Shown here in pieces: positions 9,257-42,104 of a DNA stretch of 64,000 nucleotides. The translations under genes were made by a program, and so were the position numbers. Below the pieces are notes generated by a model. The model searched no databases. It was given only the letters and a program-made list of their open reading frames with translations, and had not been told where the DNA came from. Source of the DNA: Anadara kagoshimensis (Eukaryota; Mollusca; Bivalvia; Arcoida; Arcidae). The stretch is taken from assembly GCA_021292105.1 (NCBI GenBank), contig CM037869.1, positions 51,701,851 through 51,765,850 of the forward strand. The letters are read 5' to 3'. Each line of letters opens with the position of its first letter. Within the stretch, counting starts at the first letter, position 1.

Positions 9257-9430
9257 AAAACATATGTTTAAACGATTACGAGTACGACAAAGACGTAAAT
9301 ATATATTATAAGTTTTACGACGGACTCTTCAACATGGTTAGTTGGAGTGATGCAAAGGCTTCTTGCGAAGATGAAGGGGCGCAGTTATTGATCTTGCGTA
9401 ATAGGAAAATGCTTGAATTTGCATTAAGAA
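9257..9430 (+). CDS. Receptor exon: CTLD 1, N-terminal half
   Basis: Acceptor TTCTTTAG ends at 9256; donor A|GTAAGC. It reads ENICLNDYEY, then YYKFYDGLFNMVSWSDA and SCEDEGAQLL. This is the first half of a C-type lectin domain, with an N-terminal Cys, the WSDA helix and the second Cys. The exon enters and leaves in phase 1. Confidence 0.82.
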
Positions 9431-12247
9431 GTAAGCAATTTTAATTTTAGTTTACATTTAATATATTTGCTTTAACTTCCAAAATGGTAGCGACGCAATA
9501 TACATTTGTATTATCATGTGTTAAAGATACCATTATTCGATCGAAATATTTTAAGGTTTAAATACTAAATATATGGTTTTACAAAGTCTAAATCCATCTG
9601 AATTCAAATGTTTTGTTAATTCAATATTTTGATAGTATTGGATTTGTTCACTATTCTCGTAGGTGTTTCAGATCACTTTTACCCTGTTTGTCGTGGTTGT
9701 CGTGTCGTCAAATCTAGAACGGTATAGCATTTAATATCATAGCTGGTCATTAGTGATTTTAAAGTCAGATAAAGCGTGCTTTTACATGATAGAGTTTACT
9801 TTTGCGGTACCTGTTGTCGACTGTCTTCATCTAGTATTTTAATGTCTTTGATTTTTAATAAGAAATAAAATATTTATAAAAAAACAACAATAATAATCTA
9901 TGTCCAAACCAAAATCAGAAAACAAATTAAAACTTTGAAGCTTTGAAATTAGGTTTAACACGTAACTTCAACCAGCAAAATGAGATTGGGTGCTACGAAA
10001 GGATAAGCATAATAGCCTCACCGGTCAGATCTGTCATCAAAATATGAAATAAAAAGAACGAACATATAACGATGGGCCGACAAATATATCCAGGGTAATT
10101 TTGGATACAGAGATATCATACTTATTAACAATATTGTGATGACGACCATAAGAATTTTAAGGGGCTTAAAAAGCCTAAGCAAGCAAAACTCTTGCGTCAA
10201 TTATTTGTAAGCAGTGCGTTTCCGTGATAAGAAAAAGCTTTACCATAGCGTATTAATTTTGAAACAAATACAACATAAGCAGGGAAAGTAGGTAAATTTC
10301 TTGCATAGAAAAGGAACGTTTACAATAAAAAAAATAAAAGTCATTAAGTTTGTCATAAAGCTTCAAATGTAGCGTTGATTTGGGGTAATAGTCGCGGTGT
10401 AAATCTCAGTATGAATTTGAAGAATCAGCCGTATTTATTTTCACTTCACAGGTTAGATGACACCAACATGATTTGCAATGTTAAGAACATTAATAGATCG
10501 AACGTAATCTATATATCTCTATGTAAAGCTGAATTATGTGGCGACATTTTCTTTTAAGAATCATTAAGGTTCTGCATCAATTCTGTCTAATAAAAGAAAT
10601 CAGCAAGCAAGTGTGCACATTCTTACCAATCGTTACTTAAAATCTTCCTACAAAATAGAAAATGTTTAAATAGTAGCCATGTCAATAGCATTTTATAGGT
10701 AGAGGATTGTGTAATTAGTCAGGTGTGGACTATGACATACACTGTAGGCACTAAAACTAGATAAAATGTTGTTTACGATCTGATCACAATATAAACAAGT
10801 TTATTGTAATATTAGGGTTGTTGTAATAATGCGACTGATTACGTGCCTATATGCAAACGATATCAATTGTCGTGGTTAAGACTTAATCCTGTTGATAAAC
10901 AATGCAACAACAGTATAGTTGACTACCTCATATAATGATAATACAGTCAAATGTCACATAGATAATTTGAAAAACAGTTTCGTAAATGTTCCTTGGCTTT
11001 TAACACTTGTTGCGGAAAAAAATTGACATATTTCTAAGACTACAGTGAGGAATAAAAGTTTTTGACGTCCCATAGTTTCATGTTCCTTGCACACACATTT
11101 GAATAAACACATGACGGGTGTAGCTAGCTAAACAAGATGTGATTAGCCTTCTGGAACACCCGACCTCACGTTCCTGGCGGAAGTTTTCGTGTCTAACCTA
11201 ACTTGTCAGTTCCAAAATTTTTAATTTGCTTCAGGCTTGTGATTCGGATATTGATAAGTATGTTTTTAATTATACAATTTTTTCTATAGTATCGGATATT
11301 TCATTGTGGGTTGGAATGAGTGATGCAGAAAATGAAGGCGAATGGAAATGGGTAGATAGCACAAATGTAACAATAGACTTTTGGGACTCTTGTCAACCAG
11401 ATGACGCTTACATTGGAGAGGACTGCGGCTTGTTACATATTTATAATCAAAAAATTATTGATGTCAATTGTAATATGATGTTTTTTCCATTCATATGTAC
11501 ATGTGAAGATAATGCCACTGTAAGTTTAGAGACAGATCTTCAACCACATGAAGGTAAGATCTGTTGTTAATTATTTTAAGAAGATTGATTGTATGAATAT
11601 TCCGTTCGATTCATTCTAACCCCTTTATTACGACTATAGTTTTAGTAGTTTGTCATGTTTGGTTATACTTCGAATATCAAACAAAATGTACCGATGTATT
11701 TTTTCTAAACAAAAAAGTACAGCAAAATTAAACATTAATACATTAAAATAAACATTAATACATTAAAATAAACATGTAAAATGCTGTCAAATATTACTTA
11801 AATTCCACAAATAAACATAAAAAACATGCTAGCTTATATCGACTGTACAAAAAAGAGATTAACTTTTACATGAATAAAATACTAATAATTTCTAAATACC
11901 ACCTTAAAAGTAAAGAAAAACTTTGAAACTGGAAAATTAAGTAAAACACGTACTCTGTCACTAAGGAAATAAAGCTGGGTGCTCCGGAAGGATAAGCACT
12001 TCATGTTTATGTACCTTAATCCGTCACAAGTGTAATCAAAATTGAATATGAAAGCAACATGGAATTATTGGACGTAAAATATATCCAGAATTGTTTCGGA
12101 TGGATAGTCATCATACGTTTGAACGTTATTGTGATGAATGCCATGGAAAATGTTGAAGGTCTTAGTTTGCCTTAGCGTGCAATATCAATGCGTTTTAAAG
12201 ATCTAATTCATGGATAGTTCTACAATATATATATATTATATATATAT

Positions 12248-12291
<44 letters not shown>

Positions 12292-15200
12292 CATTAAAGT
12301 CTGGTTCCATATGATATTTTTATCAAACAGATTGTTTTCTTGATGGCTATACCTTTATAGAAGAAGCACAGCTTTATTATAAAATATTTGATGAGCCTCT
12401 AAAACATAATGATGCTGAAGATGCCTGTAACGGCGATCAAACACAACTTTTGTCAATATCTACGTTGCATGAATACAGTGTGATTTATAAGATAATCTCC
12501 GGTAAGTTGAACTTACAAATGTAGTTTGAATTTTTTTTCTACAAGGGTTATCCTAAAATAAAATTCCATTTCGTTTTCCATTAGAGTTCTGCATCGCTAA
12601 TTGTATTATCATGAACTCGCAGAGATTGATTGTAAGGAAGCAAGAACCTAAAATATGACACATTTAATGTTACAACAAAATGTAAAATTTTTCTCTTACT
12701 TTGTATGTCGACAAAATATAAAATTTCAAACCTCAATACATTTTTGGCCTCAAATCTGAGTTTTAGAGGCTTCATATACTTATCTTTATAATGATTGGTT
12801 GATGTAGTATTATTTTGTATTATCCCTGACTGTACCTAAACATATTGATGCACAACGGACAAAAAGTGTCAAACAAATATGAATATCTAACTTTAATACT
12901 GGCCAAAGGGTCTTTTAAAATAATCTTCACGAATATAGGTTATATTTAAATAACTGACTAAAGCATTTTAGTGTTTTGCTGGAACATAACTTTAGCTTCT
13001 TACTTAAGATAACAACAGTTAATGTGGGTATTAGTTGGAAAGTAAGCTATCTTTTGATTATAAAACATTTCATTAATTCGTACAAAGTGCACCTGACACC
13101 TTTCTTGTAATACGTGATATCGCGACTACTCGTTTGTCGGAACTCTCCAGTGGTTAAGATATAATGGCGCATTTGTCTGGGTACAAACATGGCAACAAAT
13201 CGGCGTCCGTCACAACCCCAACGAGATTTGATCATCAGAGAATTATTAATGTCGTTAAAAAGAGAAGAACTGTGTCAATACGTCGGAAAAGACGATGTTA
13301 ATCATTCTAATGAAAGAAAATAATACCTGTTATAGACAGGGTGACGATTATGGCATCCAGAACACCCAGCTGACGGACATTGCGCGACAAAAAAGTTTTT
13401 TAACCTTATCAACGAGTTTACAATGATTCAGCGATTTACGGGGGTTGTCAACAATTAATTGTCATGTTTGATGTTGGTCAGTTCTTGTTGTAATCGTGTG
13501 GTTGGTTAAAGCAGAGGGTCCATGATAGAAAGAAGGACAGCACGCCTATCAGCTGCATGTCCATGATGTTCAGAGAGCAGATTTAGGTATGTACAGTCAT
13601 TGTTTAATAATATTAATATCATAAATGTTTTATTGAGAAAACTGAATTTAGTGTTCACTTCATGTAAGAACTTGTTTCTGGTATTAAAAAACAGTTATAT
13701 GTTTGGGTATATAGTTTTATTTAATATCAGAAACAAGTGCCTGCAAATGCTTCAGATGGACCAGGGTCTGATCCTGGGACCATCCTGAAGCACTTGGGTT
13801 TGTAAAATGATTATAAAAAATATATGGTCAAATTACAGTAATTACTGCAAAATAATAATGATAAAACAAATATGGTCACATAACTTTTTTGACCAAATTT
13901 CTTTTTTTAAATTGTTACAGGGCCCTTTGTCTAAACTGGTACACTAAGGATTGTTTAAGTAAATATTTTGTTTTAAAGTGTCACATGTAGGCATTTTAAA
14001 CACTTTAGTAACACTCCAAAAGGGTTCTTTATAATGTCAACTTGATTGGCAAATCGAATAACCAAATTCAGTCCCATAACACAATTTTGGGGGCTATTCA
14101 ATATAAATATAACCTATAGTGGGGGTCCCTATAAAGACGCCATATTTGTAGATCGCTGTCTTTTCAATAATTATCCCCTTTTCATTAACAGATCTAAATC
14201 CACACAGCTTAAATTAATCTTTACCATAGTCAAATCATATGTTATTATTACCAGAAATGTATATATAGAAAATATTAATTATAGTGTTATGAAATGTTTG
14301 TAATCAGTCATTATTTTTTTAAGAAAATTTTGTAATCAGTCAATTTTTTTATGCAAATATTAGTATATCTCAAATGTATTGTTTCATGTTACGATTATTA
14401 TTTCAGATAATGGTATGATGTACATCATCTAGCAAAATGTGTACCAGGGCAGAGTCAAGGCAATCTGCAAAACCTTATAAATTATGGATTTAGTTGGAAT
14501 AGACTGGGCAAGTATATATTTCAGAATGAAATTGCTCTTTTGAAGCTCATCCTTACAAAATGTTTAAATCTATCAGAATACTATTGTTTGCTGAACCAGG
14601 ACCACAGAAAATAATGTAAACCAAATATATAACCATCTCTGGTTTGATTGGAGATGTTCATATGAGGTCATCTGAAATATTTGGTTTTAACAGATTTCTT
14701 ATCTAACAGTCAGTGTTCATTATAGAAAGGGTTGGTTAAGCCCTTATTTTGCCAAATGAACCAATTATTAAGGCTATACTAGACAATATTTAACATTACA
14801 TGAACACAACAATATTTATGTTATGATGTTGTTGAGGAATGTTTTTGAAAACAGCTTTTCTGAAAAATCCTAGATTTAACACTATATCAGAAATAAGATT
14901 AAGACACTTATACAGTAAAACATTGTTATTATTATTCCCCATAAACAATATTTTGAAGTTCCACGTCCATTACTTTTATGTTTTGTTCTCCATGTCAACC
15001 TTGATGTAACACTGAAATCCTTTATTATAATAGTATTTGGCCAAACAAAATCAATAGGGGTGACTTGTCAGGTTCAACTGTAAATTGAGATCATGGTTTA
15101 TAACAGGCATAAAACCAGAAGATCTTCCATTATTTTTCTGATGTGAGCAAGTCATATTTTTATATACATAATAAGTAATTAAAGCAAATCCAGTAACCAG

Positions 15201-19527: not shown

Positions 19528-19599
<72 letters not shown>

Positions 19600-21994: not shown

Positions 21995-22050
<56 letters not shown>

Positions 22051-25000
22051 GTCTTTAAAAGAGTTCGCTAATGAGTCAATGTAGCTTGATCGTATAGACA
22101 TTATTATTGATGGGTTTCGGTGTTAAGAAGATGTTTTATATAGTTTTAGCATCAATAAAATTCCTTTCATAATAGGGGGTTATTTAAAATAAAATTTTAA
22201 AATTAAAATTACAACTGGTATTATATGTAATTATTTCATTTAACTTCCAGAATATGATGGCAAATCTTTTCACATCAATTCAGACGAAAGACTACAACAT
22301 ATTTTACAACGTGTAAGCACATTAAATAACAGTTTGGAAAAGATATTAAACGTTGACGGCAAAATGTGCTTTTGTCTCAGTGTTAATGGTTTTCAGGTTT
22401 TCCTGAATGCTCGAAACTGTTCAGATATACTGTCTTTTATATGTGGGAGCTATTGCAAAGAGGATAGTGTAAAGAAAATATCGACGGACTACAATGAGAT
22501 TCCTACCAGTATGTAAATATTATGCAATATATAAATCGAATAGTTTAAGTGTTTTGAACTCAATAAGATTTTGTTGGAATTGTTTCTTTGATTACTATTT
22601 TTATCTTATTTTCCCTTAATAGTCGTCCATTTTACAATGAAGCACATTGTTGTTTTGTTTTCAGTTAGAACCTGTTTTACCGTTGGTCTTGTGCATATGT
22701 CTAAGATTAATTGATGAATCTATCTTATTTTAAGCTCACTAGAATACATGATATTCATTTAATCAACAAATTAAAGATAATCAAGGGATAGAACATGATC
22801 AATGCATATGTATGTTTAGTTCATTTTTTTGGTATAAACAAACAACATTGACCTGTCTGCTGGACCTTTGATTTAAATATTCATTACGGACGAGTAAGGT
22901 CAAGTTATAGGAATCACACGTCTTAATGATGTGAATACGAATCGTGGGCAATGTGTATATATATTAATTGCGAATCCTGACACTACCTATGTATTGGGTG
23001 GACCCTCCTATATGAATATTTCTAATAAAAGGTCAAACGGACAGGCCAATGTCGTTTGCCAATAACCGTCATTTCTCAAGATATAACACAATTCTGCTTA
23101 GAGGCGGTTTATTGCGAATAGAGACACAAATAAGCAATTTATATTGCATATAGTTTGTGCTCATCGGTATACTGATTGCATCTTGGCAAAATATTTGTCC
23201 AATCAAATGAAATAGGTTCAACATCTTCATAATAATTTTGGTTTCATAACTTTGGCCCAAGCACTACTGATGAGGAATTGTATTCCGAAACGGCCGTCTA
23301 GTGCTGTAAAATTAAAACTGGTATAATATGTAATTTAAACCCCTGAGCCGATATCTCTGCTGGTGGCTGGTGCCCCGAGGATATCACCAACTCAGTAGGC
23401 AATAATTTCGTATTATTGTCAGAAATATACTATAATTGTCTAAATTTCCTGCAAGTTAAAATTTGAAATTTCTCAAAAACTAAGGTATACTCCCTCATGC
23501 AAAGTATTTCCTTAGCTTAATTTGGTAAAATATATTTTGGCCCTTTGGGTAGCTTTTCAACATCTTCATAATAATTTTGGTTTCATAACTTTGGCCCAAG
23601 CACTACTGATGAGGAATTGTATTCCGAAACGGCCGTCTAGTGCTGTAAAATTAAAACTGGTATAATATGTAATTTAAACCCCTGAGCCGATATCTCTGCT
23701 GGTGGCTGGTGCCCCGAGGATATCACCAACTCAGTAGGCAATAATTTCGTATTATTGTCAGAAATATACTATAATTGTCTAAATTTCCTGCAAGTTAAAA
23801 TTTGAAATTTCTCAAAAATTAAGGTATACTCCCTCATGCAAAGTATTTCCTTAGCTTAATTTGGTAAAATATATTTTGGCCCTTTGGGTAGCTTTTCAAC
23901 ATCTTCATAATAATTTTGGTTTCATAACTTTGGCCCAAGCACTACTGATGAGGAATTGTATTCCGAAACGGCCGTCTAGTGCTGTAAAATTAAAACTGGT
24001 ATAATATGTAATTGTCTATCAAAAAATAAAAAATATATACAAGTTTCTCATCCATAATTTCTGTAATTTTGTGTTAATTCCTATAATGTTCTATATTATT
24101 AAACAGTTGTCATTATTAAACTGATATAACAAAGAAAGTGCATAATATTCAATTGCAATTGCATTTTCAGAAAGAAATCAGATCCTTGTATCAACAGACA
24201 GAAGCATAAAATACTTTATCACAGAGACTCAGGTTGAACTGACACTTCTAACAGAAATTATAACGGATGAACCAGTGTATAGTTTTGACATTCTCTTTAA
24301 CAAGGATCTTTTGTTCTGGCACAGCCGCAGATCAACATTTATTATAGAAACTTCATTGTTTGATTCAGCCAACTATACTCATCGAAAATATGTTTACACT
24401 GGCGACCCACACACGTACCTTGCTGTTGATTGGTTGTTGTATAATATTTATTACTCTTCCATGAATACACAAACAATAAGCGTTTCTAATGGAAAGTTTA
24501 CAAAGATACTATATCTAGAAAATGTTGAGAAACCTCAATACTTACAAGTAGATCCTACCATAGGGTACGCATACATTTAATTTTTTCTTTTTGATTTTTT
24601 TTTTACAAATATATCGCTCATTTTGATTGTACAAAACATAGTATAGATTATTATAATGACCACATTTTCTCTCAACGAAAATGTTCAAATAATCTGAAGG
24701 CATGAAGTGGTAGATTTATGTAATTTATGACTATATCATACGTATTAGTAATTGTAGAAATTTGGAAACTGGTATTTTAATATAAAGTGCTTTAAGTCTT
24801 AATTATGCCTGTTTAACTGCTTATGTCATTTTGTTATCGTGTCCGTTCATTCTTGCATTAGTTCCAAGTGTATGTTTTAGAACAAATGTCTAAATCAAAC
24901 CACAAAAATAATACAAATAACAGCAAAAATATTTTAATCTCATATATGTTATACTACTTTACAGGCTAGCATTTTGGCTAGAACCTTTGGAATTGTAGCT

Positions 25001-28000
25001 GGATCGATGGACGGTCAAAGTAAAACACGAATTATAAATGGAAAATTTGACTACATTTCAGTTAATTACTACAAAAGCATCATTTTAGCTACTACTTACA
25101 ATATATTAACAAAATTCGAATACAATGGTCATGATATATCTCTCAGATCACTCATTCACCCAGATGATTTTTATAGCACGGAATGCATCAATATAGGCAG
25201 ATCTATCCAAAGCATCGACGCAATTGTCGATATTGATTACGGATTATATTCTATTCGAAATATACACTCATTATTTCCGGAAGCAAAACTAAAATATCCA
25301 TCATTTGAGGACTTTATGAACATTGCAAATATTTTTTTCACAGTCAACAATATGCTTATTGGTATAAAATACATATTCGTGAATAAAAGGCCATCAATTG
25401 TTTTTGTTCAACATGTCTATACATTGAATGAAGATTTTAAGCATTTGAAGATAATAGATGAAAGAAAGGACATTACCAATTTTGAGAATCTCAACATTTG
25501 CGGAAAACATGGTAAGTATGTTTCAAGTGAACCGTGTTATTTTAATATAATTAATGCTTTAATGTAATGTTAAGTGAAGAAAATTCTCAACAAACTTACA
25601 CAATTTGTATACAATTGGCATATCTTTTAAAATTTTTAAAATGCATTTTTTTTTAGTTTTTACCACGCCAGTTAGATAAATTCTTAAGCATACAATTTGT
25701 TTTGATTACTTTCATTTTTGTTTTACTTGAAGGATTCCGCTGGTGTCCATGGATAAATCTAGATCCACTGTGTCAGCAACTTACATTACGAACATTCTCC
25801 CAAATAAGATTTAAAAGATGTATTTGTACTATGGATGGAATATATTTGAGTCACAACTCTAAAGAATTATGTAGTAAGTGAAGACAAACTTATTTTACGG
25901 TACTTTTATCTTTAACATACTATATTTTTTCACAGTTAATAATCCCCTAGCTCTACAGCTCATTCCACAAAAACACACTCCCAATTTCAAAAATATAACT
26001 TACCCTCAATACAATAATAGTTAATGGCTTGACTTTGTATCAACACAAGCTTTTGAAGAAACGCCATATGCGTGAAAACCACAATGATGTTATGTACAAT
26101 ACAAATTTTGGTATTATGATTTCTTGATCTAACACCAGTGACTTTTAACAGACTACCAAAGCTCCGTTGACGATTTTGGGCTTTCTTCGGCTAGTTTCGT
26201 TTTAAAGGGAGTCCCACAAATATTACTTCGACTCAAAAAAGAGACATTCTGTGCCGCTAAAAGATAAAGAACCTGCTAAGTTGATGTAGATTAATGGACA
26301 GAAGGAAGATCTTGCTGATGTATGAAAATAAATCATTTATCATATTTGTTTGGTATCGTTGCCTGTTAAGATATTAATAACCTTCTTTAGTATACCTACG
26401 ACATTATATGAAATTATATTTCCAAAATATTTACATATCATGTAATCTTTTATTGGCGTCGTAATTACAAGTCTAATAACGAAACAGAACTTTAAAAAAA
26501 TCAGTCGTATGTTTTATTTCAAACTCACTCGGTTTGATGACAGCTTCCAAATACATACATCAGTAACCAAAACTGCAACCTAATCAATAAAAAATTGTAT
26601 ATGACACGTTTGACGTACAAGTATATAATAAAGCGATTGTCTATAAAATGGAAGGTACTTTTAGACCCTTCGTTCAATTTTAATCAATTTGAGTCAGCGA
26701 AATGACACTTTTATGCAAAAACGAACGTTTATTTTGCAAACATTTTATTGAGTTTAATAAGATACATTGTGACCCAATTCGATAATCACCGCAATGCTCT
26801 CGATTTTAGAGTAAGTTTGTGTTTCTTTTACACAGATCGAACCTAGTAACATTCATAAAAACAAATTATCATGTACCAATGTGTCAAATTATTTTCAGAT
26901 ATTAGTGTATGTTCCAATGAGAATGGGCAGTGTTCACAACAATGTAATGCCTTAGATCATTACCCATATAGTTATTGTTCCTGTTATGAAGGATTCCAAT
27001 TGTTGTTGGATGGTAAAACATGCATACGTAACGATGGTAAGAAAATATTTTTCCCCAATATTGCTTTGGGAATTTTAAGATGTGATCGTGCCATATTACA
27101 ATCGTACTAATGATAAAATTACTACGTCAACAAGCAAATAACACAATCACTAGTTAAAAAAATATTTGTTTCTTGTGAACAAATGTGCTTCAACACAGAT
27201 TATCGAATAAAAAGCATTACATAGAGAATAACACGTGGTAAAATCCATATCATATGCAATATCTGACCGAGAAACCAATATCAGACTGAGGGCTTTAGCC
27301 TGAGGTCTGATATTGGTCGAGGTCTGATATGGCATATGACATGGATATCACCATGTTTTATTCTGTTTATCATATACTGAAACTTTCATCATGTAGAATA
27401 GATAAATGTATCGCAGACACTTAAAATGACAAAAATGACCGAATTAAACTTGCAAGAAAATTAATTTTGAACTTGTATAACTGTTGAGTACGGTTATTCT
27501 TGGTACTCTGGTTTTCTCAATCTTTCATGACTGATATGGAATGTCAAATTTCTTGTTTATCTACCAGTAAAGTAAAATATATGATATCAATATAATTTCA
27601 CATATAGCAACTATACTTCATTACCAACCACCTGGGTGGTTCAGTGGTAGTGTTTGGTTCAAGTGTGGGAGGTCGTGAGTCAACCCCCAATTAAATCATA
27701 CTTTTAAATACAAAATAAATAAACTGCTCCCTTGACAGACACTCGATATGAAGAAGGCAGAGTACTGATTGGGTCAACTGGTGTACATATTTGATAATTC
27801 ATACTTTAAAATTTCTTTTCTGTGTGTTGCAAGCTAGATATGGAATTTGTTTATGTCTGAAGTGTTGGGGTTTCGCTTTTTTTTCTACAAACTTATGCGT
27901 GCTTCTATTAGACATTTCTCTGTCCATGGTCTGTCGTTCTATAACGCCGTCCAAATCTAGCAATCTATTTGCGAGAGAATCCATCACTCTCCACCCCCCT

Positions 28001-29509: not shown

Positions 29510-29562
<53 letters not shown>

Positions 29563-29578
29563 TAAATAAATATAATAA

Positions 29579-29622
<44 letters not shown>

Positions 29623-31305
29623 TTAAATTAAACAGATATGCCAGAAATCCTATTGCTCGGTGATGGAGTAAATTTAGAGTTGTTCTTACCACAAGGAAAA
29701 TTTGAATACAGACAAAACATCCATATAGAAAGATACGAAACGTACGACCATGCGGGGATAGAATTCGACCCACGAGAACAAAAAATATACTGGATACAGA
29801 ATAAAGTATTTGACATCAATAGAGCTTATATTAATGGGACTGGTATGTACATACTCACCCATGTCAAAATAACAATCCAGAAGCAAAGTAAAAACTTTGG
29901 AACTTTGAACATGTTAGGTTAGACACGTGGAATTCCACCAGGGAAGTGAGACCGTGTAATTATTAGTTATCCGTTTAATGACATATCATATCACTATTTT
30001 CACAGAAACGTTTTTGAATCAGTAGTGTTTACACTTAATTTGTGAAACCAATTTTATTTCGAAAGGTTAGAAAAATATTCAAAAGACCAAATATATTATT
30101 CAAATTAGCCCAGGAAATAATTCGTATGAGTGTGTGTACCTTAGGTTTTGAGGAGAATCTTCATATTTTAATTTAACAGCAATTAATAATATAATTGAAT
30201 GGTTTAAATTTAGTTGTGTAACCTATGACGTACTAAAACTAAAAAATTGTGTGCATTTAAATAACAATAACGTTATGTATTAAAAATACATAACATTATT
30301 TTGTATTAAATACTTCTAATTCAAATTATATAGAATATTAATATAGCATTAAACAAAATACAAACGAGTTTCAATGTTATGGAATTCATCATTACAAAAA
30401 GTCGCCCAAATGAACTAGTGTAAAATCTTCATGTCTGAAATTTTAAGAATTATTATAAGTTCAACGTTTCCTTTGCAACATTTCTGTGAATTTTCATTTA
30501 ATTTGGGTCAATTTTCATTTTCTCATTTTTTCCATTGACATTGGAACGGTCATATTCGAAATTTTTAGCCTTTAAATAACTTCAACGCTTCTAATACAAC
30601 TATTTTGTTTAAAGCACTTGCTTTTTTGGCCTTTTTTAGTTTCGATGGCAACAGGTTTCATTTTGAAAAATTTAAAAACCGATTGCACATCTTGGATTGG
30701 AAAAAAGGAAGAATAATGATTATAATAAATAACGAGTATTAATCCAATGATGTATGCACCATTATAAATACGGCGCCCAAATGAATACGTTTTAAAATGT
30801 CGTTTTGTAGATTTCAAGTCTTAAAATAACTTCTGTTTCGTTACAATATTAAAGTTATATTTCATTCATTTAAGAGCATTTGATATTTTTCCAACTTTTT
30901 AACATTTCCATGGCAACATGTTTGATTTTAAAGACTTTAAGAATAAAAAATAAGTTGGATTGTTACTTATGGAAGATACTCACGGATGATGACATTGGCT
31001 TGGTATAATTGGACCATCAACACCAGCTTATGTCCATATTGAATTGTTATCCCTAAATATTTTATGATGTAACACCTATATAGCTTACCCCTTTTTGTAC
31101 TTTATATACTGTAGCTTGATATTTTATTTTATTTTTACATCTAAATCTTAAGCCATTATGACACAAAAGTCTCACTTTACATACACATCTTATTATTATT
31201 TTTTTTTTTACAAATTTGAAAACTAATAATTTATTACCTTGCCATTAAATACATAAATATATAATATAAATATATAATAAAAAAGTGAATGGCACTCTTA
31301 ATCCA

Positions 31306-31340
<35 letters not shown>

Positions 31341-34300
31341 GTAGTGTAAAAATATTTCTCTCTCTCCCGCTTTCTCTCTCTATGCACAGTTTATACAACT
31401 TTGAAGCATTAAACTAGTACCACAATGCAAAGACATACATAACCATAGAAAATAAAATGATATTATTTGCAAATCTAATAAAAACAAAAAAGTGTTCAAT
31501 TAGTAAGTTAAACGTTTATTATTTTTAAATATATATTTTTCTTAGGTCGTGAAGAATTTTACCATGGATCTTTGATTGAGTTACGGACTTTAACTCTCGA
31601 TGTATTAGAAAGGAGACTTTTCTTCTCTGTCCCCCTCAATTCTTCAATTGTATCAATTAATATGGATGGAAAAGATTACCAAAAGGAACACCAATTATCC
31701 AATGAATATTATGCAAGCTATATTTCTTTAGACACGTTTAATGGGTAAGAGTATAAATCAGTTTTCTAAAGTTTGTGAAAACATGTAGATCAGTTAGTAT
31801 TGAGTCAGACTCAAGATCAAAAGGTCGTGAGTTCGAATCACGACAGACGCATATTGTGAGTTTAAGCAAGTTATTTCATATAACGTTGCTACTAATTAAC
31901 CGGTATGAGGATAATTGTTCGTTGTACACCCTGGAAGCCTTGCATCTGCCAAACGCAGTTAAACGTTTTAGATCACTTAATGATAAAGCATCAGGAATTT
32001 TACAATCACAAATCCAAAACAAACATACCAATCTATGCTATTATCTCAATATAACAGCAAAGTAAAAATTGAGTTAAACACGTACACTTCAACCAGTGTA
32101 GAGAGAACGTGTTGCTAATGCTATACTAATCCATGTTCAAATCAAAATCCAGAAGCAAAGTATAACATTTGGTACGTAAGACACGTGAACTTCCACCAGG
32201 AGAATGAGACTGGGTGATACGGAAGGGCAAGCTAGCTAACGGTTTAGCTAGCTACAACGCCGCGTTTGTTATTAAAACTTTGTGAAAGGAACTTGGAACT
32301 ATGAGACGTCAAATACATCCAGTGCAATCCTGAACAAGACATCGAACTTTTATTACATATAATATTCTTGTGCTCGTCAGTCAAATCACCAGAAAGTTGC
32401 CTAATTTCTATTATTTAACTGGTTAGACGATTATATTATAGTATTTCATACATATCTAGTTCCCAATAATATTCGCGTATTATCTGGAATATATTGACAG
32501 TTTTCTTCTTTAATTGTTTACAATTGATGTGGTTGACAATTGATAATGTGACATTTATTAGGGATAGATGGTCTATGAAAATTGAGTTACATTTGAATTT
32601 AGTATTGAGTTGGTCACAAGAAAGAAAATTTTTGCTATTATTCATTGTATAATTTACATGTATGATGCCTTTTTCATACAGCTTTTTAATAAATTCTGAA
32701 TTTCTACCAACCCTTATATGACAGTTGTATTATACAAAATTTTGCTGGTTCTATCATTGTTCTATTTCCCTATCTTTATCATTTATTTATGCTGTAAAAA
32801 CATCACCCTAGAATTTGTTTTTTTAAATTTATTAACCAGCTGAATAAGAAAATCTCCCTCAACCTTAAACATTATATCGAAATCAACTTGGGCACCTATT
32901 ATGCTGGTCCATTTACCTGCACTGTGAACAATCTGCGAATCCAAGTTGTGTTATGAACAAAGGTAGATCATTTTCAAACACCAACTTGATAAGTTTTTGT
33001 CTTAATATCTCTTTTAATCTTATCCACTGAGCTATTCCAAAATCTTTTGAATTCTGTAAGAAATCTTGGAATCTAAATAAGCAAATGATTGAATTGGGAT
33101 ATTGAAAAGGTTTTCAAAACGGAAATACTTCCAATGGGAGTCAATTTGCTTTTTTCATGTTTCAAGAAGGCAATTTACTTTTTGGCATATTTTGATTAAA
33201 ATTCAAATCACATATTTTATTCACATCGGCATCAAATATTAACCCTTAATCTCGTTATACCGCTAAATAGTTTGTATTCTATACAAAGCTTCTCAAAATT
33301 GTCTTTTTACGTTGCGAACAGTAGTTTTCACTAAATTATTATATTCTAGGGAAGAAATTATAAATGATTAAATTTCCATCAGACTTTTCCTTTAATAAAT
33401 TGTGAGATCAGATTTAACTGGATAATGGAATGATTTACGCGATGATTGGTTTCTATAATTGTGTCCTAAGATTGGAGAAGAACGATGGCGAAAGTAAAAG
33501 AAATCAAGACGCGCTTGCTTTAATGGATTCTTTTCTCTCCAAACAAATCGTTATGTTGTAGGACTTAGTTTTGAATGGGTATAAAATATACAATTATGGA
33601 CATTTTAGTGGTTGTGATATTCACAAAAATTGATTACACTAACACAGTTAAAATCAACATTATTTTTTCTTTCAGATCTGAAAATTTGACAAAACCTTCT
33701 AGCTTAACATTTATAATTATATGCATTTGAATTAACTCTTTATACGTCATGGTATAATATTTGCTGATGTATTAATTCGATCTTCAATCGTTTCATCGCT
33801 TCTTTTTCAGATTTATATACTTCCATCAACACCATAAATTGAAGAAAGCCAATGGAATATACAGAATCAATGTTGAAAGTAAACATGTACAGGAAATAAT
33901 ATCTCGAACTGATGGGCTTTTAGCACTGCGTTCATTTGCTATTGATGTCAAAAATGGAGTTATATTCTGGTTGAGTGGACTCAATGATCAAGTGCTGAAA
34001 CATCCAATTGATGGTGGGACAAAAAGAAAACCCCTTGTTCCTTCCGGTCAACTGATAAGATACACAAACATATGCCTACTAGGTAATGAAGCAACAAAGA
34101 TCTGCTACTTAGAGAAAATGTTAATAAAAATATAAACAATAAATAATTGCCACTTATTGATCTAAATTATACATAAATTAAATTCACATGTAAAATAGAA
34201 ACTTTTTCAATATCTGATCTGAGCATAACATTTCATTTCACCACTGTAGTGACTAAAACATTTATCATCATCGCCAGTTTAATTGCAATTCAAGATGTCC

Positions 34301-37300: not shown

Positions 37301-37913
37301 CTAGCACCTTAAAAGTCGCTCTAAGTGTGCTAGACAAAACAGACCATACAACACTTGCACTTCACATGCAACACGAAATTGTTCATAGATTAATCCATAG
37401 AGATAATAAAATAGTTAAAATAGTCTCGTCGCGAATAGCTAAACAATTGCTGATTCGGCGTTAAACAACATTCAACCAACCAAGCCATTAATATTAATAT
37501 TGAAGTTGTTTTGAGGTTTTTTAACTATGTTCCCATGTGCTCTTCGAGCACTTAAATTATTCTTCACATGACGGATGATGGAGCTTAAAACAATTTTTCT
37601 GATTGCATACAGTATCTTTAACACTATCCGACAAATTACTGTACGTTTAAAGTGAAATGATGGTGCTTATTCTGTCTCCCTCCTCGTTTTGTTTGTTTTC
37701 TTTCGTTGTTTTATACTTTATACTAATGGACAATATATAATTTGTTATGTCACCGCTAAGGCCAGTAACTCTACTGTTTACATACACAGAGGTTCTCATG
37801 GTACTGTTACTGGATCCGATAATGCTACATCTTCATTGAAAAGACATAAGAAATCGTATGACAAATTTTGTTAAACATATTGAATGTTATTCACACATGA
37901 TCTTCCCGGGTCA

Positions 37914-37953
<40 letters not shown>

Positions 37954-40900
37954 AGATAAAATTGGGTAAATGTTTGTATTTATTATAATTTTGAATTATA
38001 TAATTAATACTGATATAAGGTTTATAAAACGTGACCAATATCAGTTTCGCAATATTTTTAATACAACATCTTCATTCTCCGAAAATACATGACCGAACTG
38101 AGTGCTCGTCCACATCTACTTTAAACCCGTATAAATGCTGTAAAAACATATGGATGAATTAAAAACTAGACCTAATCTTTGTCTCCTTGAGTTACCTTAT
38201 CTTACCACCCCCACACTTGAAATCACTCAACTTCAACTAGTTCTAAAATTAAAAACGTCAAACTTGTAAATTGACGTACAATACTTGCTGTTGACTTCCG
38301 TGTTTGTGACGTAACTTCGTCGCGATTTTTCTCAATTGACGTAATTGCCAAGTTGTAGGTTTTCGCATGCACTAGTTAGCTCATATATGAAAAAATAAGT
38401 ACATCAACAGATGGTGTATATTTACCACAAATAGGCTGTCATACACTTTGTAAAAGGTACTGTTTACATGTATGTGGGTGAATGAAAGTTGAACTATTAT
38501 ACCACAAGTGTTTGAACTCAAAACGGCAAAATTTTAAATTTTAAGTATGATTAGTCGGCGTCTTTCAATCGACTAAATTACTAAGGTTACTGTTCGATGA
38601 AAAAGTGATACAGTTCAGTTCATATTGTAATTTTACTAACCATTAAAAAACTTCCGGATGGAATTTTTCTTAAAATTATAATCACCACTGCTTAGCCATT
38701 CTGTAGTAAGTAAAGACAGCCTATGAATAGTAAATAGTAAAGCGTTTTGTTTGTCCTAAATAAACCTTGAAATCAAAATTTACGCCAAGACATTTAAATA
38801 GGCAGGTTAGAACCCCTAATCATCAATATTAAAGTCGCATGATTAATGATAATATTGTCTTTTCTTTCAAATTTTTTCGAAAATCTTAATGCATTTGTTC
38901 CTCTAATATATTTCGTGCTTTGGTTTGTTTATTTGGTATAATTTTATAAAATACACATTGGTTATGTCGTCAAGGTTCAAGTTAAACATCTTTATATACC
39001 ACAAGACAGTTTAACAAAATTCAATTTATTTTAGGTGATAACTTATATGCAACTGGAGCAAGAGGCGAACTCGGACAAATTAACATTGAAGATGAAGTTG
39101 GACAACTTTTTGAAAAGGATAAATATCAAATTACCTCAATAGTTGGAAAAAAGATGCTCAAACTGAAAAGACGTAATACCAAAATTATTTCAAACATTTA
39201 TGAAGTTTATAATATTATTTGATAAATATGAAATAACTTAATGAAAAATATTAAGATTTGTAATGGCACACCTTTTTGCTATATCAAACACGTTTGAATT
39301 TTTTTCTTTATTCACAAACATACCAAGCTATGTTGAAATCTTTGAGTAAATTGAGAACTAAAACTATTTCTTTTTCATCGAGGATGTAGGGACAGTGCTC
39401 CAGATATAGTATCTAAACATTGCAATGTCGCTGTTACAGTTATTGAACAGCATCTATAAATATAAATCGCCACTCTAGTTTTGTTTCAACCACTGATAAG
39501 CAAAACTTTAAAAAATATTGCTAACAATAACAAATTTAACAGCTGTAAATTTAAAAAAAATGTTTTTAAAATGCTAGATGGTTAAGTAATTAATTAATAT
39601 AAACTAATTTGTGATATGATTCAATGCAAAATTTCTATTTTGATTACAGAAAATTATGTAAACACAGAAGAACATTGTAATGCAGTATCAAAATGTTTAG
39701 ATGCAAGTATGGAGTGGATTTGTTTATCTTCAGAAAATATATGTGATGGCGTCGATCAATGTTATGACAGTTATGATGAAATGTATTGTGAATATAAAGA
39801 ACATGGGAAAACATATACACGCATTAACCTATCCTGCCAAAATAATCTTGTTTTGCATCAACATTCCTATCAAAAAGAAGATTTACTGTTCGTGGATTGG
39901 GAAACACATCTTTTTTCAAGATTTATAAATATCGCCGAATCACTGCATATTCAATGTAGTGTTGACTATGATATATCCAATTTCATAACAAACTCAAAGC
40001 AAACATTTAAAATTGTATATTTTTTGTCTACCACAGATTTCGACAAATAATCAAATCAAAGGTGTTACGAGGGCGTCAACAATTTATCGAGATACTTGTT
40101 TTATCAGGACGGGGAATATCTAAAATATGGTCTACAAATACCTTCGAAGATTTTAGAGATCTTCATACTCTTGAATTGTTTGACATTAAACTCTTAGTTT
40201 TAGAAAATGATATTTTTATTAAATTGACACAGTTGCAAACCCTTTTGATTTATGTGCAAACATTAATTCAAATAGAAATGGGCGCCTTCAATGGTCTCAA
40301 TCTTTGTCGAAACCTTACTATATCTGGAACCAAATTACAACAATTACATCCACAAACATTTAACAATATGTCTAATCTGATCAGCTTAGACATATCAAAA
40401 AATAAACTGACAGTAATTGACAAGGTACTGTTTGAAAGCTTGACGTCACTTCAAGTTTTAGATACCCGAGGGAATGACATCTATATTTTGGGAAAAATAT
40501 TTGAGACAAACATGAACCTTAAGTTGATATATAGTGACACATTTGCATTATGTTGTGTAAAACCCAAAAACATGTCTGATGATGAATGTGTAGCTCCACA
40601 ATTTGACGTCTCAAGTTGTGATAATTTAATAAAAAACACCATTCTTAGAACTTTTCTTTGGATCATTGGAATACTAGCTGTTTTTGGAAATATTGGAGTT
40701 TTAATTTATAGATTAGAATGTACAGAAGGGTTGTATCAAGATACATTTTCAGTTTTAGTCGGGAATTTAACTATAGCAGACTGTTTAATTGGCGTTTATC
40801 TCATATCGATAGGAACTACTGATGCAGTTTTTCGAGGCGAATACATATGGCAAGAATATAGATGGAGGAAAAGCAAATTATGCTCTGTCCTTGGGATTAT

Positions 40901-42104
40901 AGCGGTTTTATCATCGGAGGTTTCCATAATAACTATATCTTTTGTGACTGTTGCTCGATATTTTGTAGTTAAATTTCCGTTCAAAGAATATAAAATATCA
41001 AGGAAAAATGCTGCTTTTGGATGTGTTATTTCATGGATAATTTTCTTTTTATGGCTTTATTTCCGTATTTTGTTTTCGAGAACTTTTATTCTGTCTCTGG
41101 AATCTGTGTATCCCTCCCTTTGAGGAAAGAATCAACAATTGGTTGGACTTATTCGTTTTCACTCTTTGTCGTTTTCAATTTTTTAATTTTTCTGTTTATT
41201 GCAATCGCACAGGTTCCGATAGTATACGAAGTTAAAAAAATATCGTCTAAAGTTCAGAGTTCAGGAACAACAAAGTACGTTGAAGTGGCAAGAAGGTTGT
41301 CATTGGTGGTGGCAACAGATTGTTTGTGCTGGATTCCTATTGGAACAATGGGTTTGTTGCATTCATTTCTTTACTTTCTATAGGCCAAGCTCAGGTTGTA
41401 TTTGGCCGAGTTATTTAACTTTCACGAATATAAAGCTTTTCAGATATTACAAATAACCATACGATAACAAAATTCAATTTTTCTTTCTGAAATTAGAAAT
41501 AGTTTCTGAATTTTCTTAAGACAATGTGGATTGATAAATTTCAAATAGTGAAAACCCCGTAACATTGAGTAATAGATTATACATTAAATATTTTTAATAT
41601 TTTTTGGAATTATCATTTCTTTAGAGACGTTTTCAGTACAACTTCTAAACAATTCTACTTAAGCTGTTCGGATTTAGGACTGAAATAAATAAAGTGCATG
41701 TTATATATTGAAGATTCAGAACAATTGTTGTCTTAATTTGCGTCTTCATTCGAATTCATTTTAACTCGTACTGCTGGTTTGTGAAATTTCTAAAGAAATT
41801 CCATTTTTTAATATTCATAAACGAAACGACATGTACCAATAGCTTAATATTTTTTGTATTAAACAAATAGTTCATGTATATATATATATATTCAAACAAT
41901 TGTGTTGCATAAGCTCTGTAATGGTATTGTATATGTTTATTTTCTAGATTTAAGATATATTTGATATACACAATTTGTGTTTTAGGTATTCTGGCTATAT
42001 TTGGGTACGATATGCCAAGGACAATATATGCATGGACTGTCGTTTTTGTTTTGCCGATCAATTCTGCAATCAATCCGTTTCTATACACTTTTATCGATAC
42101 AGAG
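9257..42104 (+). CDS. Chimeric CTLD / YWTD-EGF / LDLa / LRR / 7TM receptor (type C LGR-like GPCR)
   Basis: Exons are 9257-9430, 11290-11553, 12331-12501, 22251-22508, 24171-24564, 24965-25511, 25733-25873, 26899-27036, 29636-29842, 31546-31744, 33811-34082, 39035-39172, 39650-41351 and 41986-42104. Every junction is GT-AG and phase-compatible, nearly all phase 1. Domain order is CTLD, degenerate CTLD, YWTD-type propeller, two EGF-like modules, a second propeller, one LDLR class A module, six 24-residue LRRs, an LGR hinge (CC...SSCDNL) and a rhodopsin-family 7TM core with NLTIADCL, SSEVS, CWIP and NPFLY. The core resembles relaxin receptors and GRL101. It should sit in the plasma membrane with the modules outside. 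Frames shift by -1 near 24985, 40020 and 41046, each at a T run. The N-terminus, signal peptide and C-terminal tail are not resolved. The order is read from the sequence; that it is one transcript is inferred from phases. Confidence 0.8.
9896..10640 (-). mobile_element. Reverse-transcriptase element, copy R1
   Basis: Inverted copy running from the 3' UTR (9896) through the C-terminal RT region to RT sequence with 'gaaatcagcaagcaa' near 10600, homologous to 58390. It is broken by many stops. It lies in the CTLD 1 intron. Confidence 0.65.
11063..11272 (+). mobile_element. Reverse-transcriptase element 3' end, copy F4
   Basis: It matches the shared 3' UTR (gacgggtgtagctagctaaac ... gtctaacctaacttgtcag ... 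gattcggatattgataagta). It ends about 18 bp before the CTLD 1 exon at 11290, so its tail forms part of the acceptor region. Confidence 0.7.
11290..11553 (+). CDS. Receptor exon: CTLD 1, C-terminal half with QPD
   Basis: Acceptor TTCTATAG ends at 11289; donor G|GTAAGA. It reads ISLWVGMSDAENEGEWKWVD, FWDSCQPDD, EDCGLLH, VNCNMMFFPFICTC. WVG, paired Cys and the C-terminal FIC are CTLD hallmarks. QPD is the galactose-type sugar motif of the family. The downstream WND motif is altered (IDV), so calcium and sugar binding are uncertain. Confidence 0.88.
11915..12185 (-). mobile_element. Reverse-transcriptase element 3' region, copy R2
   Basis: Inverted, diverged copy (gggtgctccggaaggataag near 11974, followed by the RT C-terminal part). 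Confidence 0.6.
12222..12288. repeat. (TA)n microsatellite
   Basis: About 65 bp of TA repeat with small interruptions, 40 bp before a coding exon. Confidence 0.9.
12331..12501 (+). CDS. Receptor exon: CTLD 2, N-terminal half
   Basis: Acceptor TCAAACAG ends at 12330; donor G|GTAAGT. It reads DCFLDGYTFIEEAQLYYKIF, later DAEDACNGDQTQLLSIS. The layout matches the first half of CTLD 1, and the phase is 1/1. The domain continues after a 9.7-kb intron. Confidence 0.8.
12502..16990. other. Large-intron segment without recognised genes
   Basis: No coding exon recognised. An imperfect hairpin lies at 13669-13800 (acttgtttctg...cagaaacaagt, then gcttcagatgg...ccatcctgaagc). A GC-richer patch at 16130-16600 contains AAATGGCGGAAATCG (near 16284). 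The rest is AT-rich and may be unclassified repeat. Confidence 0.4.
16990..20770 (-). mobile_element. Decayed LINE, L1/Tx1-like
   Basis: Read on the minus strand it starts at an ATG at 20765 with MTNIKILSFTCRGLGGQNNK, the usual start of an L1-type endonuclease. Then come SDHSFAEIQLCF and RGRGFWKFNNSLL near 20090-20000, RT pieces around 18750-18480 (including ATCIFLDGSEKIL and GLKPNIDKTKAVLIGSK) and a C-terminal CTFCKSFEENISHLFFDCE near 17330-17260. Many stops and frameshifts, and a (TA)n tract, break it. Confidence 0.8.
19518..19596. repeat. (TA)n microsatellite inside the LINE
   Basis: About 79 bp of TA repeat. It encodes only an Ile-Tyr ladder on the minus strand. Confidence 0.9.
21485..21546. 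repeat. 26-bp tandem repeat, 2.4 copies
   Basis: The unit atgtatcggarctactagta plus tatgac is repeated with one difference. Confidence 0.8.
21999..22049. repeat. (TA)n microsatellite
   Basis: About 50 bp of uninterrupted TA repeat. Confidence 0.9.
22251..22508 (+). CDS. Receptor exon: CTLD 2, degenerate C-terminal half
   Basis: Acceptor ACTTCCAG ends at 22250; donor A|GTATGT. It reads EYDGKSFHINSDERLQHILQ, later MCFCLSVNGFQVFL, then NCSDILSFICGSYC. Only the terminal Cys pattern and SFIC recall a CTLD; the WIG core is gone. Phase agrees on both sides. Confidence 0.7.
23217..24013. repeat. 339-bp tandem repeat, 2.35 near-identical copies
   Basis: Units begin at 23217, 23556 and 23895 (ttcaacatcttcataataat). 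Copies are almost identical; one visible difference is aaaactaagg against aaaattaagg. Diverged single copies occur elsewhere: 30035-30175 and 48180-48350 on the minus strand, and 48640-48740 on the plus strand. Confidence 0.9.
24171..24564 (+). CDS. Receptor exon: YWTD propeller 1, first blades
   Basis: Acceptor CATTTTCAG ends at 24170; donor GG|GTACGC. It starts RNQILVSTDRSIKYFI and contains LAVDWLLYNIYYSS and QYLQVDPTIG. These are LDLR class B (YWTD) repeat patterns, 'lAvDw...nlYwtd' and 'VDPxxG'. The exon leaves in phase 2. Confidence 0.82.
24965..25511 (+). CDS. Receptor exon: YWTD propeller 1, remaining blades, with a -1 frameshift
   Basis: The natural acceptor TTTACAG ends at 24964. 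It gives GLAFWLEP in the expected frame (consensus GxLFWxD), but this hits a stop soon after. The following FGIVAGSMDGQSKTRII is in the next frame. One extra T in the run near 24985 would join them. A second AG at 24968-24969 gives an uninterrupted frame from 24970 but loses the FW motif. It continues through IILATTYNILTKF and ends NLNICGKH; donor G|GTAAGT. Confidence 0.75.
25733..25873 (+). CDS. Receptor exon: EGF-like module 1
   Basis: Acceptor CTTGAAG ends at 25732; donor A|GTAAGT. It reads FRWCPWINLDPLCQQL, later RCICTMDGIYLS and KELC. Cys spacing with C.C followed by a final C is EGF-like and stands directly after a propeller, as in LDLR-family proteins. The module is divergent. Confidence 0.65.
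26899..27036 (+). CDS. Receptor exon: EGF-like module 2
   Basis: Acceptor ATTTTCAG ends at 26898; donor G|GTAAGA. It reads VCSNENGQCSQQCN, then YSYCSCYEGFQLLLDGKTC. This is a full six-Cys EGF module of the LDLR type (C..n.G.Cs..C......y.C.C..Gf.l..dg..C). It is a complete 1-1 phase module. Confidence 0.88.
27216..27370. mobile_element. Hairpin (MITE-like) element of about 150 bp
   Basis: The left arm (gagaataacacgtggtaaaa, then tccatatcatatgcaatatc) is the imperfect reverse complement of the right arm (gatatggcatatgacatgga, then tatcaccatgttttattctg). Arms of about 65 bp flank a short loop, so the whole element folds on itself. Confidence 0.7.
27628..27770 (+). mobile_element. tRNA-derived SINE
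   Basis: Box A-like tgggtggttcagtggtag and box B-like ggtcgtgagtcaaccc are 30-odd bp apart, as in a tRNA head, followed by a short unrelated body. Confidence 0.5.
29515..29620. repeat. Two (TA)n tracts separated by 25 bp
   Basis: Tracts at about 29515-29560 and 29585-29620, directly before the exon at 29636. Confidence 0.9.
29636..29842 (+). CDS. Receptor exon: YWTD propeller 2, first part
   Basis: Acceptor TTAAACAG ends at 29635, right after two (TA)n tracts; donor G|GTATGT. It reads MPEILLLGDGVNLELFL, then AGIEFDPREQKIYWIQ and INRAYINGT. This is a clear class B repeat ('giefDp.eqkiYWi'). A retroelement fragment begins within about 15 bp of the donor. Confidence 0.85.
29851..29958 (-). mobile_element. 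Reverse-transcriptase element 3' end, copy R3
   Basis: Inverted 3' tail (cagaagcaaagtaaaaactt, then aattccaccagggaag) starting within about 10 bp of the donor at 29843. Confidence 0.7.
30035..30175 (-). repeat. Diverged copy of the 339-bp repeat unit
   Basis: The reverse complement of the unit junction is recognisable (tgtgaaaccaattttatttc, then aaatatatta, then gtaccttaggttttgagg). Confidence 0.5.
31308..31380. repeat. (CT)n microsatellite, two blocks
   Basis: CT tracts at 31308-31340 and around 31356-31380. Confidence 0.85.
31546..31744 (+). CDS. Receptor exon: YWTD propeller 2, second part
   Basis: Acceptor TTTCTTAG ends at 31545; donor GG|GTAAGA (phase 2). It reads REEFYHGSLIELRTLTLDVL, ERRLFFSVPLNSSIVSINMD and YASYISLDTFNG. 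The pattern 'tLDvle.rlFfs...sIvsinmDG' is class B-like. Confidence 0.78.
31786..31975 (+). mobile_element. tRNA-derived SINE
   Basis: Box A-like gatcagttagtattgagtc and box B-like gtgagttcgaatcacga at tRNA-like spacing, followed by a body. It lies about 40 bp after the exon ending at 31744. Confidence 0.55.
32005..32340 (-). mobile_element. Two nested reverse-transcriptase element 3' ends, copies R3a and R3b
   Basis: An inverted 3' tail at about 32005-32115 is followed directly by a second, longer inverted copy (32120-32340) that reaches the 3' UTR start (ggaactatgagacgtcaaat). The sequence suggests one copy inserted into or beside another. Confidence 0.6.
33811..34082 (+). CDS. Receptor exon: YWTD propeller 2, third part
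   Basis: Acceptor CTTTTTCAG ends at 33810; donor G|GTAATG. It reads FIYFHQHHKLKKANGIYRIN, later SFAIDVKNGVIFWLSG and IDGGTKRKPLVPSG. 'FaiDvknGviFWlsg' is a further YWTD-type blade. It enters in phase 2 and matches 31744. Confidence 0.8.
34083..37084. other. Intron segment without recognised genes
   Basis: AT-rich intron of the receptor. A 111-residue open frame at 35932-36267 has no recognisable domain and no splice context, and I treat it as chance. A GC-richer patch near 35450-35520 was seen without clear function. Confidence 0.4.
37108..37490 (+). mobile_element. tRNA-derived SINE (full-length-like)
   Basis: Box A-like gtggcctaatgcataagac and box B-like gtaagttcgaatcccactt lead a body with two conserved blocks (ttactggttaacctggtatc; ttgttcatagattaatccat). 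The tail ends ggcgttaaacaacattcaac plus a short CCAA repeat, a tail type seen in molluscan SINEs. Confidence 0.7.
37915..37949. repeat. (CT)n microsatellite
   Basis: About 34 bp of CT repeat inside the duplicated block. Confidence 0.9.
39035..39172 (+). CDS. Receptor exon: linker after propeller 2
   Basis: Acceptor TATTTTAG ends at 39034; donor C|GTAATA. It reads GDNLYATGARGELGQINIED, then VGQLFEKDKYQITSIVGKK. It is phase 1/1. No domain was recognised; by position it may be the last blade of the propeller or a spacer before the LDLa module. Confidence 0.6.
39650..41351 (+). CDS. Receptor exon: LDLa, six LRRs, LGR hinge and TM1-TM6 (two -1 frameshifts)
   Basis: Acceptor GATTACAG ends at 39649; donor G|GTTTGT. 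An LDLR class A module comes first (CLDASMEWICLSSENICDGV, then DQCYDSYDEMYC). Six 24-residue LRRs cover about 40080-40510, for example SNLISLDISKNKLTVIDKV. The hinge has FALCCVKP and SSCDNLIKNTILRTFLW. TM1 begins near 40650. TM2 has NLTIADCLIGVYL, TM3 follows KLCSVLG and ends TVARYFVVKFPF, ECL2 has SGICVSLPL, and TM6 has TDCLCWIPIG. Frame falls by one base at the T6 run 40020-40025 (otherwise TAA at 40048) and at the T5 run 41046-41050 in TM4. Adding one T at each restores an open frame. A mini-intron with acceptor CCACAG at 40036 was considered for the first, but no good phase-2 donor exists. Confidence 0.85.
41986..42104 (+). CDS. Receptor exon: TM7 with NPFLY
   Basis: Acceptor GTTTTAG ends at 41985; donor GAG|GTAACT (phase 0). 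It reads GILAIFGYDMPRTIYAW, then FVLPINSAINPFLYTFIDTE. This is a textbook LGR TM7 (VLPINSAxNPFLYT). The cytoplasmic tail exon is not certain. The next exon at 43977 is open only in another phase unless one T is missing there. Confidence 0.88.

Follow-up and report, generated by a model that had tools for sequence, protein, structure and literature searches.

The DNA analysed here (the window) is a stretch of 64,000 nucleotides of the bivalve Anadara kagoshimensis, corresponding to C13:51701851-51765850 of a genome assembly of 1.115 Gb in 36 contigs. An initial annotation, made from the letters of the window, had described between 9257 and 42104 fourteen exons for a receptor with lectin, propeller/EGF, LDLa and LRR modules in front of a seven-helix (7TM) core. 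AG/GT borders were found at every one of these exons (Table 1), in agreement with that description. The junction phases from E1 to E13 were 1,1,1,1,2,1,1,1,1,2,1,1, as obtained in a scan for phase-compatible pairs only, and the E13-E14 junction was read by eye as phase 1; all 13 phases of the window recur in a divergent paralogue at C9:5.82-5.85 Mb (hereafter C9). The acceptor adopted for E6, at 24965, is absent from the phase-compatible candidates for the E5-E6 junction, yet it fits the paralogues, and it lies in another frame from those candidates because of a frameshift in E6. Position 9257 was not borne out as the start of the gene, being a splice acceptor preceded by six exons of a Peptidase_M28-like domain (1117-8002), a head that had been overlooked. 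Likewise, 42104 is a splice donor and not the gene end, so that the map lacks an exon for the C-terminal tail, which was looked for after 42104 and not found. A search for the first coding exon of this copy, with its signal peptide, gave nothing either; that exon may be located beyond the left end of the window.

Table 1. Exons of the receptor copy and of the M28 series preceding it, in positions of the window.
Feature	Positions	Strand	Remarks
M28 exon a, for the N-terminal portion of the Peptidase_M28-like domain	1117..1328	+	Series colinear in C9 and C14; phase-1 acceptor (by eye)
M28 exon b, first Zn ligand motif position = GAYYNT	4052..4160	+	
M28 exon c, FDNGAG... FVAFDDHV, lacking the EE found in active M28 enzymes	4925..5041	+	
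M28 exon d, weak splice scores at 5' side	6231..6445	+	
M28 exon f	6795..7068	+	
M28 last exon, phase-1 donor after ...QPG	7775..8002	+	
E1, CTLD1 first half, phase-1 acceptor	9257..9430	+	Lectin_C
E2, CTLD1 second half, QPD motif	11290..11553	+	
E3, first half of degenerate CTLD2	12331..12501	+	
E4, CTLD2 second half	22251..22508	+	
E5, YWTD propeller 1, first part	24171..24564	+	LRP match
E6, YWTD propeller 1, second part	24965..25511	+	1 base short near 24988; stop 24996 as assembled
E7, EGF-like module 1	25733..25873	+	81% identity to p14 copy, local rearrangement
E8, EGF-like module 2, LRP/factor X type	26899..27036	+	Sub-cut-off FXa_inhibition, cEGF; LRP match
E9, propeller 2	29636..29842	+	LRP match
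E10, propeller 2	31546..31744	+	LRP match
E11, propeller 2	33811..34082	+	LRP match
E12, propeller 2 end	39035..39172	+	
E13, LDLa-like module, LRRs, hinge, TM1-TM6	39650..41351	+	1 base short near 40023 and near 41043
E14, TM6 end to TM7 (NPFLY), donor gag/gtaact	41986..42104	+	

The intron between CTLD2 and propeller 1 contains a tandem array (23217-24013) with 2.4 copies of a 339-base unit at 99% matches, and a short interspersed repeat at 8368-8870, 11061-11274 and elsewhere recurs in introns of the compared copies. Within the CTLD2 intron, ORFs at 19354-20190 (reverse strand) look by eye like a retrotransposon remnant; the one tested was without Pfam match. Downstream of the receptor, an ORF at 54460-54696 (forward strand) resembles by eye the second half of another CTLD (WIGL...FICQIE) and gave no Pfam match up to E = 1; Pfam, run on four window ORFs other than those of the receptor, was unproductive.

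The order of modules read in the initial annotation stood for a CTLD, a propeller, two EGF modules, a second propeller, the LRRs and the 7TM core, while the second CTLD proved to be degenerate and the LDLa module is only LDLa-like. In line with the lectin modules, Pfam run on the joined window exons returned Lectin_C at 1.7e-16 over two stretches; the score was 61.3 bits in the window, against 88.4 in C9 and 84.7 in a further paralogue at C14:7.351-7.374 Mb (hereafter C14), each again with two stretches (cut-off 22.6). A QPD motif, which we take to be the galactose-type sugar-binding motif, is seen by eye in CTLD1 of all three. LRR_8 was matched at 1.9e-14 on a window ORF, the LRRs adjoining the 7TM, and 7tm_1 on the window ORFs at 3.9e-9, above cut-off, with a second frame at 5.4e-6, below it; the values in C9 and C14 were 3.2e-23 and 1.3e-24. 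The PDB structure nearest to the LRR-7TM part was RXFP1 (7tmw, 3.9e-67), aligned over residues 43-479 of 482, and the next molecule was LHCGR (4.1e-33). The propeller-EGF-propeller exons match structures of LRP2, LRP4 and LRP6 (phmmer, PDB; best 4e-45 for the window and 6.9e-40 for C9). Pfam Ldl_recept_b was not reported for the window, C9 or C14 sequences, and the EGF models remained below the Pfam cut-off (FXa_inhibition 5.5e-6 and cEGF 2.1e-5, both on E8). One LDLa-like module is present in each of the three models, with six Cys and an acidic box by eye; Ldl_recept_a reached 11.4-15.2 bits in four copies, all below the Pfam cut-off of 24.1, and the best PDB match of the module was an LDLa of LRP2 (0.0094).

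The exons that precede E1 gave, when joined, a Peptidase_M28 match in Pfam (7e-12; 45.9 bits in the window, 43.1 in C14 and 37.4 in C9, cut-off 21.3) spanning the first 78-93 of the 193 profile positions. A colinear series exists in C9 and C14, and from exon c on in a copy at C17:2.69 Mb (hereafter p14). While the match above cut-off is what links these sequences to M28 aminopeptidases such as 6hc6 and 1cp7, they differ from them in their site residues, as compared by eye with 6hc6 in the first half of the alignment only: AHYD is changed to AYYD or AYYN, EE to HA or HV, and the D of NDNG, kept in the window copy, to N in C9 and C14. With these first-half residues replaced, a role in binding rather than cutting is likely for the domain. 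The transferrin receptor, whose ectodomain has an inactive M28 fold, is a precedent for such a binding role.

Whether this head belongs to the receptor gene depends on the junction between the last M28 exon and E1. A phase-1 GT donor was found at the same place in 20 of the 21 copies read, which comprise 16 read by eye (15 of them phase 1) and the window, C9, C14, p14 and C3:23.9 Mb copies; in the exception, a copy on C11 (C11b), a one-base difference before the donor breaks the phase. The acceptor of E1 was of phase 1 in 16 out of 16 further copies examined by eye, and likewise in the window, C9, C14, p14 and C3:23.9 Mb copies. Since phase-1 borders are common in extracellular modules, this match alone counts for little, and the genomic arrangement has to be considered with it: each of the 42 genome matches of the last M28 exon is followed by a same-strand E1, at a distance of 0.7-17 kb between match coordinates. 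The two parts could instead be tandem genes, one for a secreted M28-like pseudo-peptidase and the next for a CTLD-propeller-EGF-LDLa-LRR-7TM receptor, which would always have been duplicated together. A stop is indeed met within 5 codons after the M28 GT in the window, C9, C14, p14 and 6 of 16 other copies, as in a separate M28 gene, and the gap between M28 and CTLD1 reaches 17 kb in some copies. We nevertheless regard this as unlikely, given that the stop is not conserved (the other 10 of the 16 copies have none within 5 codons) while the place and phase of the donor are, even in the copy with only 41% identity in its core, that the 539 bases between M28 donor and E1 acceptor in C9 revealed no signal-peptide exon, and that the spliced frame is open across the junction in both C9 and C14. 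The M28 exon series is most likely part of the same gene as the receptor. An own signal-peptide exon for a gene starting with the CTLDs was also sought upstream of E1, after the M28 exons, and none was found in the window, C9, C14 or p14. A simple scan, which is not proof, went through the 13 introns lying between M28 and E13 in C9 and in C14 without detecting a candidate signal-peptide exon, while in both copies it did detect one upstream of the M28 exons.

Linkage of the modules was then assessed across the host genome. The LRR-7TM part has at least 112 matches at no fewer than 108 places, and propeller exon E6 has 42 matches at 36 places; each of the 42 is followed on its own strand, 7.3-29.9 kb downstream, by a GRL101-like 7TM match. 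A same-strand 7TM match within 70 kb downstream was found for 49 of the 84 matches of E2, 48 of the 55 of E1 and 40 of the 42 of the last M28 exon, the chance expectation for such linkage being 0.34%. Among the other 35 matches of E2 one is strong (C11:16756048), and 34 have E values no better than 5.1e-8, as is expected of other C-type lectins. Four markers (M28, E1, E2 and E6) are all present at 34 of the 108 7TM places; 8 places have E1 and E2 only, 4 lack E6 only, 3 have other partial sets and 59 have none. These marker-less places may reflect divergence or another architecture. At C3:23.89 Mb the LRR-7TM part has only 41% identity and the modules are still in order: CTLD1 (6.8e-8, 2.6e-12), CTLD2 (weak, 0.039, then 4.2e-6), propeller (8.9e-8 and a weak 0.019), EGFs (1.8e-7, 5.8e-15) and LDLa-LRR (5e-66), with the last M28 exon and the second-propeller exons spotted by eye among the ORFs.

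As phases can coincide between modules of adjacent genes, the LDLa-LRR-7TM exon might form a gene of its own that only looks joined to one made of the lectin/propeller exons. We consider this very improbable: every propeller match lies upstream of a same-strand 7TM, even though in the most distant copies the identity of the propeller is down to about 31-38%; window and C9 agree in all 13 junction phases; and the E12-E13 introns of C9 (629 bases) and C14 (873 bases) contain no signal-peptide exon according to the scan. The reading of the modules as one receptor gene, already proposed in the initial annotation, is supported by the linkage at 34 of 108 places, by the copy with 41% identity and by two spliced paralogues with open frames. 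At C3:69.70-69.71 Mb and C11:16.74-16.76 Mb, the last M28 exon and E1 were present without a 7TM match within 70 kb downstream; these copies are possibly truncated or receptor-less.

Those two paralogues are C9 and C14. The C9 model consists of 19 exons, starting with M28 exon b, and is open for 1854 codons; its M28 exon a is frameshifted and was omitted, and the end used for E11 is the second-best scoring one. In C14, 21 exons from the signal-peptide exon through TM7 are open for 1906 codons, the last of which is past the donor, so that about 1905 are proper. All junctions of both models were picked for phase compatibility, and the borders of E9, E13 and E14 in C14 are candidates chosen to keep the frame open. 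The end used for E9 is probably not real; a GC donor a few codons on is likelier, in which case a few residues are missing from the model. The order of domains in C14 according to Pfam is Peptidase_M28, Lectin_C (2), FXa_inhibition and cEGF (both sub-threshold), LRR_8 and 7tm_1. Of 30 LRR-7TM loci, 16 have a frame of at least 551 aa open around E13, with the match free of stops.

As assembled, the copy in the window is frameshifted. The exon for LDLa, LRRs and 7TM, named as such in the initial annotation, is not one open frame here: single-base losses are found near 40023, where 25 of 26 paralogues have the base, and near 41043, where 26 of 26 have it. With the base lacking in E6 near 24988 relative to the paralogues, this makes three single-base frameshifts that had been missed. 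Read as assembled, the window meets its first stop at 24996, inside propeller 1, while the stretches from M28 exon a to E5 (804 codons) and from E7 to E12 (364 codons) are free of stops. An intron at the break between LDLa and LRR was considered and discarded, as no phase-compatible pair of usable size was seen by eye and nearly all paralogues have the base in question. Compared with p14, 13 exons of the window have 90-96.5% identity and E7 has 81%; among the 12 exons other than E6 and E13, ten are without indel, E1 has a three-base indel and E7 is locally rearranged. In two further copies on another contig, L010 (C17:26.42 Mb) and L011 (C17:25.99 Mb), a stretch of 1761 bases (39640-41400 of the window) has 99.83% identity with the window copy, far above most copies, which could be due to very recent duplication or gene conversion.

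The window copy may be a young pseudogene or an assembly error. We hold it slightly more probable than its opposite that the copy is dead and yields no functional receptor at this place, even though the family would be functional. It has one base fewer than its relatives at three places, and the loss near 40023 is common to L010, which speaks for a real mutation; against this, the stretches M28 exon a to E5 and E7 to E12 are without internal stop, the loss of single bases in T-rich stretches may stem from errors in the consensus, and dN/dS relative to p14 is low in LRR-TM4 (0.12), CTLD1 (0.18) and EGF (0.13), though this constraint may predate the loss. In the same comparison, dN/dS was 0.22 in TM5-6, 0.39 in CTLD2 and 0.25 in LDLa, and higher in M28 (0.74; exons c, d, f and g) and in the propellers (0.53 and 0.63); these values, from which TM7 was excluded, come from one pair with one frameshifted member and are a hint only. 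In distant copies the propeller exon has 31-38% identity where the LRR-7TM part has about 64-73%. Both sets of figures fit a core under constraint and outer modules that are freer to change.

The evidence at the DNA level consists of the module order, the recurring splice phases, the linkage at dozens of places and the two open spliced paralogues; from these we infer one mRNA and one protein across all modules. Very probably, as far as sequence allows it to be judged, we are dealing with an expanded family of type-C LGR (GRL101/RXFP-like) GPCRs with a multi-module ectodomain on one chain, in which the outer modules would bind ligands and the 7TM would signal. From N- to C-terminus, the predicted protein would comprise a signal peptide, an M28 pseudo-peptidase, a CTLD, a degenerate CTLD, a YWTD propeller, two EGF modules, a second YWTD propeller, an LDLa-like module, LRRs and the 7TM. 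The outer modules (the pocket of the pseudo-enzyme, the QPD CTLD and the LRP-type clamp) might bind particulate or protein ligands, and this binding would shift the block formed by LDLa, LRRs and hinge, which in turn could trigger the 7TM as in relaxin receptors, probably via a G protein. The many recent copies, in which the outer modules diverge more quickly than the core, point to a repertoire for recognition, be it of microbes, symbionts or self/gamete cues; the role in immunity or nutrition envisaged in the initial annotation is a conjecture from sequence. More tentatively, and with rather more doubt than conviction, we propose a G-protein-coupled repertoire of some 35-50 genes built like pattern recognition, in which an inactivated M28 domain, lectins and an LRP-type clamp, all fast-evolving, are fused in one chain to a conserved relaxin-receptor-like GPCR core, with frameshifted copies as a conceivable source of secreted ectodomains acting as decoys.

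Parts of this design are familiar from other systems. The likeness to RXFP1 lies in the LRR and 7TM alignment mentioned above; RXFP1 carries an LDLa upstream of its LRRs and is not known to have an M28, CTLD, propeller or EGF module. The propeller-EGF-propeller unit is shared with LRP2, LRP4 and LRP6. LRPs are single-pass endocytic or Wnt co-receptors and not 7TM proteins, and in place of their single-pass anchor with endocytic tail, the open frame of the C9 and C14 models runs into LDLa-LRR-7TM.

Closer relatives have been described in molluscs. GRL101 is assigned to type C2 of LRR-GPCRs (PMC11863921), and the Lymnaea receptor, with its LDLa, LRR and 7TM parts, resembles the Anadara family as a type C member (PMC8286064, PMC11863921) but is described with twelve LDLa repeats and six LRRs, in contrast to the one LDLa-like module and the M28, CTLD, propeller and EGF modules found here (PMC8286064). 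In Biomphalaria sudanica, GRL101-like genes with CTL, LDL, LRR and 7TM have been described, and the schistosome-resistance locus SudRes2 is reported to hold ten of them in a cluster, together with two genes from which a domain is absent (PMC12297450). These receptors share the CTLD+LDLa+LRR+7TM plan with the Anadara family, and their genes are tandem-clustered at a locus associated with parasite resistance; as described there, they differ in having one CTL domain named and no propeller, EGF or M28 (PMC12297450). The view that no described receptor of this class also carries an LRP-type unit and CTLDs thus fails for the CTLDs, owing to the B. sudanica genes (PMC12297450), and holds for the LRP part among the matches listed. 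Those matches, covering open-access titles and abstract openings, included no GPCR with propeller/EGF and CTLD, and none with M28. What would be new here, among the matches listed, is the addition of M28 and propeller/EGF to the already known CTLD+LDLa+LRR+7TM plan. GRL101 receptors are orphans. In snails, genes of the GRL101-like kind are part of a locus for parasite resistance (PMC12297450). Should the proposed architecture be true, the ectodomain of a GRL101-like receptor that combines a pseudo-peptidase with a propeller/EGF unit of LRP type would be unusually modular for a 7TM protein, and it would suggest how recognition of particles or glycans could be wired to G proteins, an idea that the many copies in one genome make testable. 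Gene models of the GRL101 family may stop short because these modules are 7-50 kb away, upstream of a 7TM exon that is found easily.
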